Program-made: the position numbers and the translations under genes | Shown here: piece after piece, positions 19,860-27,661 of the stretch | How the letters are laid out: each line of letters starts with the position of its first letter | Position numbering within the stretch: position 1 is the stretch's first letter | Source: Tautonia plasticadhaerens | Lineage (GTDB): Bacteria > Planctomycetota > Planctomycetia > Isosphaerales > Isosphaeraceae | Assembly (NCBI RefSeq): GCF_007752535.1 | Contig: NZ_CP036426.1 | Span: forward strand, 5,518,001 to 5,582,000 | Direction: 5' to 3' | DNA length: 64,000 nucleotides | The notes under the pieces: generated by a model | Database searches by the model: none | What the model was told of the DNA's origin: nothing | The model's input: the letters and a program-made list of their open reading frames with translations, nothing else

Positions 19860-22800
19860 TCATCGCCGACGGCGGAAGTCCCCGTCGGCGGGGTTGATCC
19901 AGCCCGGGTCGGCGTAGGTCCCATTCGCATCCCGGCCTGTAGCCCGCCAGGACGCGAGGTTGTAGAAGACCCCCTCCCCCGCGGCGAAGATGCCGTTGTT
20001 GTTGGGCGCCCAGTACTGATTGCGGTCGACCGTCCAGTTGGCCATCAGGCTGGGGCGAAGCCGGATGCCCATGTTGTAGAACGGGTCCCAGGAGCCCTGG
20101 GCGACGATCGTGTTCTCCAGGAACTCGGAGGGGCCGAGGCGGGCGTCGATGGTCAGGCCGTTGGTCTCGGTCGTGACCGGCGGCACGTAGACGTTGTTCC
20201 GATAGAACCCCATCGAGAGCCCCTCGACGCTGCCCAGGATCAACACCCCGCGTCGGCCGTTGTCGAAGAACTCGCTGTCCCGGATCACCAGGCGCCGGAG
20301 GTTGTCGCCGTAGACCCCCATGGCCTGGAAGCCGTCCTCGCCTCCGACGTGGAAGGCGGAGTCCTGCACGAGCACCGTGCCGAAGGTCGAGCCCGTCCGC
20401 TCCTGGTTGAAGGAGAGCCCGTTGGCCGGGCCGCCGAAGTCGACGCCGTCGATCAGGGTCCGGGAGTGCACCTGGTTCGGCGACCCGGCCTCCTGCCTCA
20501 GCTTCACGGCGAAGTTCACCACGCCATCCGCCTCGTCGAACCGCATCCAGCGGAGCAGGAGGTGGTCGAAGACGTTCGCGTAGACGTAGTGGCTGTGATA
20601 CGGGACCGCCGATGGCCCGGCCCCGCCGCTGGCCATCGTCCCGCCGAGGACGCTCACCCACTTCGTCGCGTCCAGATCCAGTCCGGATTGGTACGTCGCG
20701 GACCCGGAGAGGGCCTCCCAATCATAGGAGCAATTCCAGAAGACGAACCCGTAACCCCGGGCGTCGGCGCCGGCGGTGGGGGTGTGCGCGAAGATCTCGA
20801 TCAACGGCATGAAGCTGTTGGTCGTGTTCCCGCTGTAGAAGCTCGTCTCCAGGAGGTGGATGTTGTTGGCCTGGGCGTACTCGTCGCCCTCGCCCCCCAG
20901 CCGACTGACGTGGAAGGCCCGCCCCACGGCGCTCCTCAGGTCGAGCCCGTCGATGACGATGTCCTCGGCCCGGCTCGCTCGGGAGGCCCGGATCGCGATG
21001 GGCGTCTCCCGGGTGCTGATGATCGGCTTCGGGAGGCCCGGGTCGCCGTAGGAACCGATCCGGACGGGCCCATCCCCGGCCTCCGTGATCTGGATCGTCG
21101 AGGTCCGCTCGAAGAGGGACCCCCGCTTGATCAGCACCCGCATGCTCTCGCCCGAGGTCAGGGTCGCGTCGAGCCGATCGAAGGTGTTGAAGGGGGCCGC
21201 CTCCGAGCCGTCGGGGACGCCCCGGGAGATGCCGTCATAATTGGAGTCGAAGTAGATCACGGGCCCCGACCAGGCCGAGACGGTCACCTGCTCGTCCGTC
21301 CCGCCTTCGATCCGGTCGAGGATGAGCACCTCCGGCCGGACCGAGGCGCCGACCAGGCCCGACGCGTCGGCCGTGAGGGTCAGCCGATGTCCCAGCAGGT
21401 CCCCGGCGGCCTCGGGGCCGAGGAAGGCCCCGGTCCGGAGGTTGCCCGCCCCGATGTTCGGCAGGGCGGCCAGGGCCTGGACCACCGCGTCGGGCCCGGC
21501 GTCGTAGCGGATCGGCGCCGTCGTCCGGCCGGGCCCGCCGTCGACCGACGCGGTCAGCCGGAACGTGCCCCCGGAGGCGTGTCGGACCCTCACTTCCTGC
21601 TCCGCGGACCGCATCAGCGTGCTGGTGGACGCGGTGATGAGTTCCCCCGACTCGTCCTTGCCCCGGACCGTCAGCGTGATCGAGTACGAGCCGGGGGCCC
21701 GGTAGACGTAGGCCGCCTCAGGCCCCTCCTGCCCGGTGTTGGCGTCGATCAGGGCCCCGCTGACCGGGTGGACGAACAGCTCCTGGCCGCCCGGGTCGCC
21801 GAAGTCCCAGGTGTATTCCAGGTCCGTGAACGGATTGCCCGCCCCGGTCGTCGTCTCGGCGGCCGAGACCTGGACGACGAAGGGTTCGGTCCCCGAAGTC
21901 CGGGTGATCGTGATCCGGGGCTCGATGCGGTCCAGCCCGGGGATCGCCGGGCGTCCCCCGAAGGAGGTGATCCCCGACGCCTGGCCGAAGACGACATAGG
22001 AGACAGACTCGGCCCCGTGGGATCGCTCGCCGTCCCGCCACTGGTCCTCGACCGCCGCTAGTTGCAAGCTGTCGGGTCGCACCGGGTCGTCGCCGTAGAG
22101 GGCGGCCCAGGCGCCGTCCGCGTCGTTCATCGAGGAGGGCGAGAGCACCGCCGAGGAGGCCGAGGAGAGGCCCTCCAGCGGCGCGATGAACGGCGAAGAG
22201 TCGTCGAGGCCCTCGACCGACTCGCCGGTCCGGCCCGCCACGAAGTCCACGCCGTCGACGCTGTGGGCCCCCGCCTCGAAGACGAAGTAGCCGATCGTCT
22301 CGGGGGCCCGGGAGGTCGCCGGATCCTCGCCGACGTGCATGCCGACCGTCAGGTCGGTCGGCGAGGGGGCGACGTTCGGCGAGGCCCCGCTCGCCCAGAA
22401 CATCGAGGGCCTGGGGTCATTGGTGGACATGACCTGGCCGATGACGACCGGCATCTCGTACGACTGGGCGTACTCCAGGGGCAGGCCCTCGAACGATCCC
22501 CCCCCATCGGCCGCATCGATCGCGACCTTCCGGACCTCCATCTTCATCCCGGAGTGTTCGTCCGAGAACGTCCCCTCCTCCGAGACGAGGTAATGCACCC
22601 GAATCGATCCCGAGATCGGTTGCGATTCGTCGACCCGCTCCAGGGAGACGTCGTCGATCAGGGAGGTGCGGTCGCCGCCGAGGGTGTTGAGGCCGACCAG
22701 GGCGACGCGGGAGGCCCCGGCGGGCAGGGCGAAGGTGGCCTCGAAGGTCCGGTAGGCGTCGTCGGAGGGGGCGAAGCGGGCGACCTCGACGCCGCCGACG

Positions 22801-25634
22801 GTGACGGCGAAGTCGTGGCCCTGGAGTCGGGAGTTGGCGCGGTGGGCGGCCTTGAGGCGGAGGCGATAGGTGCCGGGCTCGGCGACCTGGACGTCCTGGG
22901 AGATGCGGCCGTTGCGCTGGAGGAAGGCGACCTGGTCCCCCTCGGGGGCCGGGGGGTTGGCGGCGGTGAATCCGGAGCCGTCGGCGGTGACGCCGGCGTC
23001 GCCGGAGTAGGACCAGGGGGAGCCGGCGGGGCGGTAGAGGAAGGAGCCGTGGGAGCCGGCCGCCCCGGCCTCGGGCGCCTCGAACCCGCTCCCCCCGAGC
23101 GAGGTCGGGACGCTTTCGATCCGCTCCAGGGAGATGTCGTCGATCAGCGAGGTGCGGTCGCCGCCGAGGGTGTTGAGGCCGACCAGGGAGAGCCGGCTGG
23201 GTCCGGCGGGCAGGGCGAAGGTGGCCTCGAAGGTCCGGTAGGCGTCGTCGGAGGGGGCGAAGCGGGCGACCTCGACGCCGCCGACGGTGACGGCGAAGTC
23301 GTGGCCCTGGAGTCGGGAGTTGGCGCGGTGGGCGGCCTTGAGGCGGAGGCGATAGGTGCCGGGCTCGGCGACCTGGACGTCCTGGGAGATGCGGCCGTTG
23401 CGCTGGAGGAAGGCGACCTGGTCCCCCTCGGGGGCCGGGGGGTTGGCGGCGGTGAATCCGGAGCCGTCGGCGGTGACGCCGGCGTCGCCGGAGTAGGACC
23501 AGGGGGAGCCGGCGGGGCGGTAGAGGAAGGAGCCGTGGGAGCCGGCCGCCCCGGCCTCGGGCGCCTCGAACCCGCTCCCCCCGAGCGAGATCGGTTGCGA
23601 TTCGTCGACCCGCTCCAGGGAGACGTCGTCGATCAGGGAGGTGCGGTCGCCGCCGAGGGTGTTGAGGCCGACCAGGGCGACGCGGGAGGCCCCGGCGGGC
23701 AGGGCGAAGGTGGCCTCGAAGGTCCGGTAGGCGTCGTCGGAGGGGGCGAAGCGGGCGACCTCGACGCCGCCGACGGTGACGGCGAAGTCGTGGCCCTGGA
23801 GTCGGGAGTTGGCGCGGTGGGCGGCCTTGAGGCGGAGGCGATAGGTGCCGGGCTCGGCGACCTGGACGTCCTGGGAGATGCGGCCGTTGCGCTGGAGGAA
23901 GGCGACCTGGTCCCCCTCGGGGGCCGGGGGGTTGGCGGCGGTGAATCCGGAGCCGTCGGCGGTGACGCCGGCGTCGCCGGAGTAGGACCAGGGGGAGCCG
24001 GCGGGGCGGTAGAGGAAGGAGCCGTGGGAGCCGGCCGCCCCGGCCTCGGGCGCCTCGAACCCGCCGCCCAGGAGCGCATCCTCTCGGGGAGAGGCCGCGG
24101 ACTCCACGGAGATCTCGAATCGGTCGTCGCCGACGTTCCGGATCCGGGGCACCAGGGAGAGGCCGCCGATCGGGATCTCCGGCGTCGCCGCCACGACCAT
24201 CGAGGCGTAGCGCCGATCGAGGGACACCGTCTCCCACTGGCCCAGCCCCGTGAGCTCGACCACCCCGGTGCGGAGGTGCGGCTCGTCGGCGGCGATCTGC
24301 ATCGCCGAGGCGAGGTCGAGCCGCCCCCCACCGGCCGTCAACGACCCGAGCTGGCCCGTCGGCTCGACCGAGGCCATCAGCACCGACTTGATCTCCTCGG
24401 CGCCGAGCGACGGGTCCTCGGCCTTGAGCAGGGCCGCGGCCCCGGCGACGTGGGGCGCGGCCATCGAGGTGCCGGACTTCAGGCCGTAGCCCCCGCCCGG
24501 CGTTGTGCTCAGGATGTCGACCCCGGGGGCCGCGAGGTCGACCGAGAGCCACCCGGAGTTGGAGAACCCGGCCAGCTGGTCGTTGCGGTCCGAGGCGGCC
24601 ACCGAGACGATGTTCGGCAGGTCGAACGCGGCGGGGTAGAATTTCGCCGCCCCCGGCGCGTCCATGATCGTCCCCTGGTTGCCGGCCGCGGCCACAAAGA
24701 GGTGGTCGGCCTGGGCGCCCGCCGCATTGATCGCGTCCCGGAGCGACTGGCTGTAGGTGGTACCCCCCCAGCTCGCGTTGGAGATGACCGCCCCGTTCCT
24801 CCAGGCGTAGTTGATCGCGTCGATCGCGGCGGAGACGGTGCCGTTGCCGAAGCGGTCCAGGACCTTCAGCGGCATGATCGAGACGTCCCAGGAGACCCCA
24901 GTCACCCCGACCTGGTTGTTGCCCCGGGCGCCGATCGTCCCGGCGACGTGGGTGCCGTGGGAGTTGTCGTCCATCGGGTTGTTGTCGCGATTGACGAAGT
25001 CCCAGCCCCGGACGTCGTCGACGTAGCCGTTGCCGTCGTCGTCGAGGTTGTTGCCGGGGATCTCCCCCGGGTTCGTCCACAGGTTCGACGACAGGTCGGG
25101 GTGTGCGTAATCGACCCCCGAGTCCAGGACGGCGACCACCACCCCGTCGCTGCCGGTCGACTGCTGCCAGGCCGTCATCGCGCCGATGTCGGCCCCCACG
25201 GTCCCGGAACCCTGGCCGACGTTGCGCAGGCCCCAGAGCTCCCCGAACCTCGGATCGTCCGGGGACGTCCCCGCCCCGATGACGTAGTCCGGCTCGGCGT
25301 ACAGGACCCTCGGATCCTTGCGGGCGGCCTCCAGCGCCGCCGGCACCCCCGAGGCGTCGACGCCGACGATCCGAAGCCCGGCGGCTTCGGAGAGCCTCCG
25401 CCCCGGGGCCAGGCCCGAGGGGTGCGGCCCGCTCCTCGCGGAGACTTCATCACGATAGCGGACGATGATGCGATCCGGGGCGTAGGAGGCCGCCTCGGCC
25501 GGGCCCCTCGGGTCGACTTCGGCCGGCAGGACTCCCTCCAGGAGCATGCCCGGTCGATCCCCGCTCAGCAATCTGCGGTCCTCGAGGATCTCGGGGCGCA
25601 AGGCGGACGACGGACGCTTCGTGTTGCGCGGCAT
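19860..25634 (-). CDS. Giant secreted subtilase with triplicated jelly-roll modules, PKD and beta-helix
   Basis: A 1,924-residue secreted S8 serine endopeptidase. The N-terminus carries the planctomycete export-type motif ILEDRRLLSG (about 16-25). The peptidase domain is about 160-480, with the intact triad Asp171 (VLDSGVDYAHPDL), His226 (NSHGTHVAGT) and Ser390 (SGTSMAAPHVAGAA), and oxyanion Asn319 (AAGNQ). Next comes a segment ending IRNVGDDRFEISVES, then three almost identical 162-residue galactose-binding-like modules (each SHGSFLYRPAGSPWSYSG ... LIDDVSLERV). A GSIRVHYLVSEEGTF segment, a PKD-like domain (YTWDFGDPGG) and a right-handed beta-helix region follow to the C-terminus. The start ATG at 25634 places the LEDRRLL motif correctly; a GTG at 25736 would add 34 residues. 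Confidence 0.93.
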   Translation of the reverse strand: MPRNTKRPSSALRPEILEDRRLLSGDRPGMLLEGVLPAEVDPRGPAEAASYAPDRIIVRYRDEVSARSGPHPSGLAPGRRLSEAAGLRIVGVDASGVPAALEAARKDPRVLYAEPDYVIGAGTSPDDPRFGELWGLRNVGQGSGTVGADIGAMTAWQQSTGSDGVVVAVLDSGVDYAHPDLSSNLWTNPGEIPGNNLDDDGNGYVDDVRGWDFVNRDNNPMDDNSHGTHVAGTIGARGNNQVGVTGVSWDVSIMPLKVLDRFGNGTVSAAIDAINYAWRNGAVISNASWGGTTYSQSLRDAINAAGAQADHLFVAAAGNQGTIMDAPGAAKFYPAAFDLPNIVSVAASDRNDQLAGFSNSGWLSVDLAAPGVDILSTTPGGGYGLKSGTSMAAPHVAGAAALLKAEDPSLGAEEIKSVLMASVEPTGQLGSLTAGGGRLDLASAMQIAADEPHLRTGVVELTGLGQWETVSLDRRYASMVVAATPEIPIGGLSLVPRIRNVGDDRFEISVESAASPREDALLGGGFEAPEAGAAGSHGSFLYRPAGSPWSYSGDAGVTADGSGFTAANPPAPEGDQVAFLQRNGRISQDVQVAEPGTYRLRLKAAHRANSRLQGHDFAVTVGGVEVARFAPSDDAYRTFEATFALPAGASRVALVGLNTLGGDRTSLIDDVSLERVDESQPISLGGSGFEAPEAGAAGSHGSFLYRPAGSPWSYSGDAGVTADGSGFTAANPPAPEGDQVAFLQRNGRISQDVQVAEPGTYRLRLKAAHRANSRLQGHDFAVTVGGVEVARFAPSDDAYRTFEATFALPAGPSRLSLVGLNTLGGDRTSLIDDISLERIESVPTSLGGSGFEAPEAGAAGSHGSFLYRPAGSPWSYSGDAGVTADGSGFTAANPPAPEGDQVAFLQRNGRISQDVQVAEPGTYRLRLKAAHRANSRLQGHDFAVTVGGVEVARFAPSDDAYRTFEATFALPAGASRVALVGLNTLGGDRTSLIDDVSLERVDESQPISGSIRVHYLVSEEGTFSDEHSGMKMEVRKVAIDAADGGGSFEGLPLEYAQSYEMPVVIGQVMSTNDPRPSMFWASGASPNVAPSPTDLTVGMHVGEDPATSRAPETIGYFVFEAGAHSVDGVDFVAGRTGESVEGLDDSSPFIAPLEGLSSASSAVLSPSSMNDADGAWAALYGDDPVRPDSLQLAAVEDQWRDGERSHGAESVSYVVFGQASGITSFGGRPAIPGLDRIEPRITITRTSGTEPFVVQVSAAETTTGAGNPFTDLEYTWDFGDPGGQELFVHPVSGALIDANTGQEGPEAAYVYRAPGSYSITLTVRGKDESGELITASTSTLMRSAEQEVRVRHASGGTFRLTASVDGGPGRTTAPIRYDAGPDAVVQALAALPNIGAGNLRTGAFLGPEAAGDLLGHRLTLTADASGLVGASVRPEVLILDRIEGGTDEQVTVSAWSGPVIYFDSNYDGISRGVPDGSEAAPFNTFDRLDATLTSGESMRVLIKRGSLFERTSTIQITEAGDGPVRIGSYGDPGLPKPIISTRETPIAIRASRASRAEDIVIDGLDLRSAVGRAFHVSRLGGEGDEYAQANNIHLLETSFYSGNTTNSFMPLIEIFAHTPTAGADARGYGFVFWNCSYDWEALSGSATYQSGLDLDATKWVSVLGGTMASGGAGPSAVPYHSHYVYANVFDHLLLRWMRFDEADGVVNFAVKLRQEAGSPNQVHSRTLIDGVDFGGPANGLSFNQERTGSTFGTVLVQDSAFHVGGEDGFQAMGVYGDNLRRLVIRDSEFFDNGRRGVLILGSVEGLSMGFYRNNVYVPPVTTETNGLTIDARLGPSEFLENTIVAQGSWDPFYNMGIRLRPSLMANWTVDRNQYWAPNNNGIFAAGEGVFYNLASWRATGRDANGTYADPGWINPADGDFRRRR
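22636..24062 (-). repeat. Three tandem ~487-bp repeats inside the protease gene
   Basis: Copies begin at homologous points 22636, 23122 and 23611, giving periods of 486 and 489 bases. About 400 bases of each unit read as identical. The two outer copies also share their ends (VDESQPIS), whereas the middle copy differs over roughly 20 codons (PSRLSLVG, ISLERIESVPTS). Each unit encodes one jelly-roll, CBM-like module. Near-identity at silent positions implies recent duplication or continuing gene conversion. The array can shrink or grow by recombination and is prone to assembly collapse. Confidence 0.95.
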
Positions 25635-25804
25635 GGTGGGGAATACCGATGAGTCGTGCTGGGTGGAATCGGCGTACGGCGGCGAGTCTTGCCCGGCGGC
25701 GGGCGGTCCGGCAGGCGCAGGTCGGATCGAGATCACCTGGTTTAATGATTCAAACAGGTGACGCCCGGAGGATGAGAGTCCTCAGGCCACGACATGTGCG
25801 CAGT

Positions 25805-25833
25805 AACATAAGATATGGTTTTCGCCCCGTCAA
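25805..25833 (-). promoter_or_regulatory. Sigma-70-like promoter of the giant protease
   Basis: On the minus strand TTGACG (25828-25833) and TATGTT (25805-25810) are separated by exactly 17 bases, in an unusually AT-rich patch. The leader is about 160 bases and contains a small GAGGACTCTCATCCTC hairpin. Confidence 0.6.
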
Positions 25834-26472
25834 CCCGCTTGCGCGATTATTTTTCCTCGCAAAGCCTTACGGAGCAATGGCTTGCAGCGGAGATTCTCAG
25901 CAGTATTGCCCCCGTGCATGGAGGGGGGCGCCCCGGATCCCGGCCGCGTGAGGATGCCGCGGGGATGCGAGAAGGGTCGCGATCGACGACCGATCTCGGG
26001 CATCGCGACGTGCCTCCGGGCGTCGTCACCCGGCCGTGCGGGCCCTCCGCGAGTGCCGGCGGCCGGGCGGGGACGCCACCTCCGAGCGGGCGTCCCGACA
26101 CGGGGAAGCATAGGACATCCCCATCGGATCCGGGACTCGCCCGGGCGCCTGCGGGACGGATTTCCCGGGAGGTCCGCCCCACGATGGGCGGCCCCTCGCT
26201 CGGGAGTCATGGCCCGGTTGTCCGGGGCCCCCGCCCCGTCGAGGCGTGGCCTCGAGGAGGGTTTGAACCCCGCGATCGCCCCTCCCCCGACGGCCCGGGG
26301 CCGGCGTGAGTCGGTCGGGAAGGGCCCGGAGCCATCCTGTCCCCGACATGACGGGCCTGACGGGCGGGAGGGGAGCCTCCCGTCCGGGGAGATCGACCGG
26401 CGACCGCGTCGCGGGGCGAGGCCGCGATCGGGCTGAGTTGGGAGATGCCGAGCTGGGGCGGGGGAGGGCATG

Positions 26473-26490
26473 GGGGGGCGGTCGCCCCCC
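26473..26490 (-). terminator. G/C hairpin after the coiled-coil gene
   Basis: GGGGGG (26473-26478) pairs with CCCCCC (26485-26490) across CGGTCG, beginning 10 bases past the stop codon of the minus-strand gene. No U-tract. Confidence 0.4.
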
Positions 26491-26500
26491 CTCGGGCCGT

Positions 26501-27661
26501 TCAGGCGGTGGTGGCCTCGTCGGCCGGCGACCCGTCGGCCGGCGGCTCGTCGGCCGAATACCGATCCAGGGCGTTGCGGAGCGACCGGAACTCGGGGCCG
26601 GTGAGCCACTCCCGGTAGCCGCGGACGACGTCGATCAGCTCCTCGTCCGGCGGGCCGTAGCCCTCGACGACCCGAGAGAGGGTCTCCCGGAACCGATCGG
26701 CCTTGGCCTTCGGGTCGTCGTGACGGATCAACAGCAGGGCCTTCAGGTGCTCCAGGGCCTGCTCGGCCAGTCGGCGGGACTCCTGGCGTTCGGCCTGAGA
26801 GTGGTCGGACTCGGCCGGCTCCTCGCCCCGCAGTTCCCGGTTGCGCCGGGCCTCCTCGGACGCCTGGCGGAGCGACTCCCTCGCCTCGGCGATGTAGGCT
26901 TCCCAGTCGGCCACGTATTGCCGGTTGAATGCCTCGATGTAGCCGGGCTCGTGTTGCTTGGAGAGGCTGACCAGGCGGCGGAAGACCCCCTCGAGCTGGT
27001 CCCGTTCCTCTTCCCCGGGGCCGGCGTGCTGGAACCGCCGCAGGCGGCCGATCCAGATCCGCATCTGCGAGTACTGCTCCCGGCGGTCGAGCTTGGCGAA
27101 CGCCGGGGTGCCTTCCTCGACTTCCCGGGCGAAGGCGCGGACCTGGAACTCGGGGAAATGCTCCTCGGCCAGCTGGGCGAGGCGGTCCCCCTGCTCGACG
27201 TAGCCGTTGGCCGGGACTTGCAGGCGGTCCAGCTCCCGGCGGACGTGGTGGTAGCGGTCCAGCGCGGCCCGGAGTTCGATCCGGGCCACGTCGAGGGCGT
27301 CCTGCACCTCTTCCAGCTCGGACTGGGCCTCTTCCCTCCTGCGGTCGATCTCGACACGGGAGATCTCGACGAGCCGTTCGGCCTCCCGGAATTCCTCCTG
27401 GCCCATGAGCATCCGGTTCTGCGCGGTGCGCCGGATCAACTCCTTGAGCAGGACCTCGTCCCCCTCGGCCAGCTCCAGCTCCCGCTGCCTGGCGGGTCGG
27501 ACCTGCCGGGAGCGATCCTCGACGGCCCGGGTCGCCTCCTCGGTGATGCGTAGCTGTTCGGCGGCCAGCTCGAGTTCCTCGATCAACTCCTGAGTCCTGG
27601 TCTTGGCCTCGACGCGTCTCAAGAGGTCCGCGAGCTGACCTAGCGGTGATCCCGTAGTCAT
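26501..27661 (-). CDS. Cytoplasmic coiled-coil hypothetical protein
   Basis: A 386-residue soluble protein without signal peptide or membrane segment. Residues about 5-130 are long charged helices (RVEAKTRTQELIEELELA, RREEAQSELEEVQDALDV) predicted to form a coiled coil. The middle has WIGRLRRFQHAGPGEEERD and EAFNRQYVADWEAYIAEA. The C-terminal third is helical and ends in a Pro/Asp/Ala-rich tail (SADEPPADGSPADEATTA). No catalytic or nucleotide-binding motif is visible. The AGGAG ribosome-binding site is about 11 bases before the ATG. It is monocistronic as far as can be seen. Function unknown. Confidence 0.85.
   Translation of the reverse strand: MTTGSPLGQLADLLRRVEAKTRTQELIEELELAAEQLRITEEATRAVEDRSRQVRPARQRELELAEGDEVLLKELIRRTAQNRMLMGQEEFREAERLVEISRVEIDRRREEAQSELEEVQDALDVARIELRAALDRYHHVRRELDRLQVPANGYVEQGDRLAQLAEEHFPEFQVRAFAREVEEGTPAFAKLDRREQYSQMRIWIGRLRRFQHAGPGEEERDQLEGVFRRLVSLSKQHEPGYIEAFNRQYVADWEAYIAEARESLRQASEEARRNRELRGEEPAESDHSQAERQESRRLAEQALEHLKALLLIRHDDPKAKADRFRETLSRVVEGYGPPDEELIDVVRGYREWLTGPEFRSLRNALDRYSADEPPADGSPADEATTA

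Follow-up and report, generated by a model that had tools for sequence, protein, structure and literature searches.

How did three nearly identical copies of one domain come to lie in tandem in the middle of a protease gene, and what keeps them alike? The question is raised by a gene of Tautonia plasticadhaerens ElP, which we analyzed within a stretch of 64,000 nucleotides (contig NZ_CP036426.1, positions 5,518,001 to 5,582,000), referred to here as the window; unless stated otherwise, coordinates are positions in this window.

Architecture of the subtilase gene

The gene lies on the minus strand. The whole open reading frame spans 19860–25736 and encodes 1958 aa when read from the GTG at 25736, but the ATG at 25634 (MPRNTKRPS...) is the likelier start. 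The subtilase (S8) catalytic domain was found at 24351–25148 (Pfam PF00082, E 1.5e-58), and the profile score of 198.8 bits, against a cut-off of 21.8, places the protein in the subtilase (peptidase S8) family. The sequences VAVLDSGVD, SHGTHVAG, and SGTSMAAP were all present in the translation, and we take them to be the Asp/His/Ser triad of the putative protease. The stretch LEDRRLLSG, seen in the translation at 25560–25586, presumably corresponds to an N-terminal motif of planctomycete extracellular proteins; Planc_extracel was absent among the 10 Pfam matches to the protein up to E 10. The subtilase is probably secreted.

Between the catalytic domain and the array of modules lies a poorly conserved segment (24063–24350), which is 28% identical over 96 aligned residues to its counterpart in T. 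sociabilis. The array is followed by a unique segment (GSIRVHYLVSEEG...; 21867–22610; 64% identity to T. sociabilis), a PKD domain (21645–21917; PF18911, E 8.9e-8; PF00801, E 1.5e-7), and a C-terminal region (19863–21536) that appears beta-rich in a low-confidence model (mean pLDDT 49.9). Pfam thus places a subtilase domain, PKD domains, and DUF642-like stretches in one protein. An open frame of 1196 aa runs antisense through the gene on the plus strand (22062–25652); we take it as a by-product of high-GC codon use.

Three near-identical modules in tandem

The array consists of three tandem units of 489, 486, and 477 nt at 24062–22611, between the catalytic and PKD domains: copy 1 with its linker at 23574–24062, copy 2 with its linker at 23088–23573, and copy 3 at 22611–23087. 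Tandem Repeats Finder reported a period of 486 and 3.0 copies; among its 13 rows for the window this one scored highest (2789). One direct-repeat family was found in 20000–27000. An exact match of 479 nt (23586–24064 = 22611–23089), practically the whole unit, links copies 1 and 3, whereas the runs shared by copies 1 and 2 (23692–24064 = 23203–23575) and by copies 2 and 3 (23203–23589 = 22717–23103) are 373 and 387 nt long, respectively. These runs, together with the PF00082 match, bear out the original prediction of three near-identical modules inside a subtilase. Its upper boundary of 24062 also holds, but the lower one, 22636, falls 25 nt short of 22611; likewise, the identity it described across all three copies is real and includes silent sites, but extends over about 370 nt per unit rather than 400.

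Nucleotide identity between the modules of the array is 97.6–100%, and the differences are not scattered. Copy 2 has the same first 371 nt as copies 1 and 3; of its 459 module sites, 11 deviate from copy 1, and every one of these is among the last 88. These differences lie in the divergent 3′ end of copy 2 (23088–23202, including the linker, which differs too).

Predicted fold of the module

From an alignment of 41 modules, taken from the window copies and from named public genomes, a structure consisting entirely of beta strands was predicted with a mean pLDDT of 94.9 and a pTM of 0.89. Using Foldseek and VIA-align, we found that this model superposes on xylanase J (2dcj; Z 14.3, rmsd 2.0 over 114 residues), on CBM36-1 (7ay3; Z 14.2, rmsd 2.2 over 117), and on HpiC1 (6al8; Z 14.1, rmsd 2.9 over 149), HpiC1-type cyclases in general reaching Z values of about 14. 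CBM35, CBM4-2, CBM6, CBM61, meprins, and gingipain adhesin domains followed at Z values of about 13. The superposition on known members supports the assignment of the predicted module to the beta-sandwiches of the galactose-binding-like/CBM kind. The jelly-roll, galactose-binding-like guess made from the DNA is therefore upheld by the prediction of one module, at the level of the fold; because a shared fold shows no function, carbohydrate binding stays putative.

At the level of sequence, the module resembles DUF642, HpiC1-like, and CBM-type galactose-binding-like domains weakly. A single ElP module scores below the Pfam cut-offs both for DUF642 (PF04862; 15.8 against 27 bits) and for the HpiC1-like model (21.7 against 27), and in this it differs from those families; the whole protein, with its three stretches, scores 35.2 bits for DUF642, and 20 of the 41 aligned modules matched DUF642 at E 0.01. 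When a module profile was compared with the sequences of solved structures, weak matches were obtained (best E 0.00044; CBM36, 1ux7, E 0.024). No match to the module was found in PHROGs up to E 1, and in NCBIfam one module matched choice-of-anchor C weakly, with 12.1 bits against a cut-off of 120. Our literature search returned nothing joining DUF642 to planctomycetes or to gene conversion, and the papers it returned on DUF642, carbohydrate binding, and bacteria, as far as their available parts go, mostly concern plants.

Distribution of the module and comparison with other arrays

The module family was matched in 8 of 59 relatives with a one-module query (E 1e-15). With the alignment as query, at the same threshold, matches were obtained in at least 27 among 297 genomes sampled from the class; 13 candidates per genome were scored, so that match counts may be low. 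The scan of named genomes gave 31 loci in Planctomycetota, Verrucomicrobiota, Acidobacteriota, Armatimonadota, Bacteroidota, and Bacillota, and also included one Alphaproteobacteria bin and one record titled only 'bacterium'. Besides the window gene, modules occur in a second subtilase (L039) and in a gene with an aspartyl-protease domain (L037), and at L041 they neighbour malectin. Two single frames carry five diverged modules each, one of 848 aa (L110, G165:C232) and one of 1099 aa that also has malectin domains (L041, G024:C226). ElP itself has a distant lone module (L006; G000:C3, 115488–115895), matched at E 4.2e-7; its frame is 308 aa long, and the contig measures 140 kb.

We compared 14 arrays in which a single frame holds two or more copies of at least 80 aa. 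This rule excluded a partial copy of 73 aa in L040; L072 and L073, each consisting of two pieces of which one or both are short, were set aside, and some genomes with several matches, such as G130, G308, G103, and G073, were left out. In the 12 arrays outside ElP, all of which come from draft assemblies that tend to lose near-identical repeats, the best nucleotide identity within an array was 53–75% and the longest in-register identical run was 11–37 nt. Because these arrays reach 53–75% at best, the identity seen in ElP is not forced by the fold.

The orthologue in T. sociabilis carries one module

We searched 59 genomes, and 45 genomes of the family, with the segment behind the array, and in each set two genomes matched: ElP itself and T. 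sociabilis. The orthologue of T. sociabilis GM2012, a frame of 1695 aa, aligns from the prodomain to the C-terminus. It carries exactly one module, at the same place, and DNA self-comparison revealed no internal repeat. On one flank of the gene, two adjacent genes occur in collinear order in both species (72% and 67% identity). For two genes on the opposite flank in ElP, no counterpart was found within the 20 kb of T. sociabilis sequence that was compared. Identity between the two proteins varies by region: 55% in the catalytic domain, 28% in the segment before the module, which is longer in T. sociabilis than in ElP, 55% in the module, 64% in the segment behind it, 66% in the PKD part, and 45% at the C-terminus. 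At the nucleotide level the T. sociabilis module is only 72% identical to ElP copy 1, which again indicates that the fold does not demand identity of the DNA. Since the T. sociabilis sequence comes from a draft assembly (contig title NODE_25, cov 6.18), a repeat could conceivably have been collapsed there; yet the contig runs through the module with unique flanks.

These results lend no support to the proposal that two segments belonging together were split by a spliced-in array. One module already stands at this place in T. sociabilis, and the two segments are conserved to different degrees, the front one at 28% and the rear one at 64%. The comparison with orthologues lacking the array, which that proposal called for, yielded no module-free orthologue in the 45 family genomes and the 59 genomes searched with the segment behind the array; the sole other orthologue found is the one with a single module. 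The presence of one module at the same place means either that ElP multiplied an existing module or that T. sociabilis lost copies. The array is best read, from these alignments, as the multiplication of a module already present and not as a block spliced into a module-free gene.

Tract-wise identity in two protease genes of ElP

We examined the distribution of differences between copies 1 and 2 by random placement. When the 11 differences were placed at random over all sites, none of 20000 placements left a clean stretch of 371, whereas with third bases alone, a weaker result, 116 of 20000 permutations reached the clean stretch. A second gene of ElP, with an aspartyl-protease domain and two modules (L037:2709-6428; G000:C1, modules at 2248188–2249123, minus strand), gave a similar picture. 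Its two modules differ at 57 of 456 sites, yet one tract of 182 nt, or 64 codons when third bases are considered alone, is free of differences; 0 of 20000 permutations reached it, with all sites and with third bases alike. In seven control pairs, which had runs of only 11–30 nt, the counts ranged from 63 of 20000 (the orthologous pair, all sites, 30-nt run) up to 19059. Since the orthologous control pair deviates from random expectation as well, uneven constraint plays a part in producing clean runs. The patterns in both ElP genes nevertheless suggest tract-wise homogenisation.

The relation between the modules of the two genes is less simple. In the protein tree, the ElP subtilase modules join those of the other ElP gene and not the orthologue's, with support of 100/97 in a first tree that included the long-branch rows L069_1, L006_1, and L064_4 and 98/95 in a second tree without them; a clade of the ElP subtilase modules with the orthologue's was not rejected (AU p 0.118). 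Third-base identity favours the opposite grouping, being 0.74 between the ElP subtilase modules and T. sociabilis and 0.50 between them and the other ElP gene. Given this disagreement, module exchange between the two ElP genes is no more than possible. The longest identical run between modules of the two genes is 17 nt. The non-module part of the other gene was matched in 2 of 40 genomes, namely ElP itself and one genome with a 40% match (135 of 361 residues).

One could go further and propose that ElP actively homogenises arrays in at least two unrelated protease genes and that the number of modules changes between cells or strains, with a possible tie to surface attachment; we regard this as a tentative idea that is more doubtful than not. 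T. plasticadhaerens is named for its attachment to plastic.

Origin of the array

The history that we consider probable is that one ancestral module was multiplied in tandem to three in ElP and that intragenic homogenisation acted on the copies, leaving binding-type modules in a probably secreted subtilase. The common ancestor with T. sociabilis would have had one module at this place, and unequal exchange in the ElP lineage would have multiplied it. Intragenic recombination, either gene conversion or further unequal exchange, would then have kept or made the copies identical, with the 3′ end of copy 2 alone left diverged. We infer homogenisation by such recombination because an identical core is combined with a diverged end of copy 2 and because the second ElP gene has its 182-nt tract. 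To arrive at the order of the ends, with copy 1 like copy 3 and copy 2 different, gene conversion or an exchange in several steps would be needed. The most likely role of the modules is to strengthen binding and extend reach, and they may keep the protease at a surface of polysaccharide or at a glycosylated one. That variation in copy number could tune binding, as originally proposed, fits the identity of the DNA, one genome of the species being at hand.

Alternatively, the common ancestor may already have had an array of at least two modules, of which T. sociabilis lost copies while ElP homogenised the old array. Arrays recur in the module family, as the 14 compared here attest, and the divergence at the end of copy 2 speaks for an old array; against this, the sole other orthologue found has one module, and DNA self-comparison of its gene shows no remnant of additional copies. 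We hold such an ancestral array to be possible but rather improbable. We think it unlikely that very recent triplication alone, in one or two events with few differences since and without continuing homogenisation, produced the array. The 479-nt exact run of copies 1 and 3, covering practically the whole unit, would agree with such an origin, but recent triplication should spread differences evenly, and here the end and linker of copy 2 are strongly different while its first 371 nt are identical. Moreover, one unequal exchange involving two diverged copies would not be expected to yield this order of the ends.

An artefact of assembly in the ElP genome is very improbable: copy 2 has its own end, every junction is distinct, and assembly errors usually collapse repeats and seldom add them. 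Identical tandem repeats are hard to assemble, and the available part of one report describes how gingipain/HagA repeats broke draft assemblies (PMC5266723), but the ElP genome is reported as complete, with a chromosome of 8.67 Mb and five plasmids, in the part of its description available to us (PMC7716859). The assembly that we used has 9,395,224 bases in 6 contigs, the largest of 8,668,938.

Base composition bears on the remaining alternative. At fourfold sites the modules of the array (22611–24062) prefer C over G at 0.86–0.88, whereas 0.79 was the best value among 153-codon stretches elsewhere in the window, in a comparison that used a crude gene set of the window with 87 stretches in all, some of them overlapping the array. 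The T. sociabilis module shares the bias, its third base being C at 0.75 and G at 0.16, and the modules of the other ElP gene lean to G, not C. Because the T. sociabilis module at the same place has the same bias, the C bias is older than the array. We rejected, as extremely unlikely, the insertion of the array as a foreign block into a module-free subtilase, which the strong C preference might have favoured but which the T. sociabilis module, with its place and third-base bias, contradicts.

Comparison with known systems

Two known systems resemble the ElP array. Periscope Proteins, as described in the available parts of two papers (PMC8201768, PMC9704523), are surface proteins with near-identical tandem folded domains whose number is proposed to change by recombination between copies. 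A surface-attached rod and a repeat number that varies between strains further characterise them. Tandem folded domains of more than 50 residues with very high DNA identity are what the ElP array has in common with them, its identity being the 97.6–100% given above; enzymes with repeats of this type, namely autolysins and a lysozyme, are also named in the available part of that review (PMC8201768, PMC9704523). The ElP case differs in that three copies lie in a protease of a planctomycete and are known from one genome, and its copy variation is seen only between species, as three copies versus one. The word 'planctomycet' is absent from the main text of PMC8201768, and the ElP gene makes it possible to test for intragenic homogenisation in a phylum left unmentioned there.

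The gingipain/HagA proteins of Porphyromonas gingivalis, according to the available part of PMC5266723, likewise have a secreted protease followed by beta-sandwich adhesin modules, a layout that ElP would share as a presumably secreted protein, and the number of HagA repeats differs between strains. The gingipain adhesin domains are also fold neighbours of the ElP module (3km5, Z 13.3; 4itc, Z 12.9). The two systems differ in protease family, in module sequence family, and in the type IX secretion of the gingipains, and the repeats of P. gingivalis are identical within and between genes (PMC5266723, available part), whereas between modules of the two ElP genes no identical run exceeds 17 nt. 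Among the 10 Pfam matches up to E 10, a range in which HMMER filters drop most weak matches, neither a cleaved-adhesin nor a gingipain model appeared. With an S8 catalytic domain and no such Pfam model, the ElP protein does not belong to the gingipain/HagA (CAD) group; the fold of the module alone is alike.

By analogy, then, the ElP array appears to work like the Periscope and gingipain repeats at the level of DNA. Should homogenisation prove to be active in ElP, an isolate from an alga, it would be a planctomycete counterpart of these systems. T. sociabilis with one module and its congener with three near-identical ones make a clean pair in which the gain of tandem binding-type domains by a protease can be followed, and what the pair displays looks like a known bacterial way of lengthening surface proteins, gene-internal duplication kept uniform by recombination.
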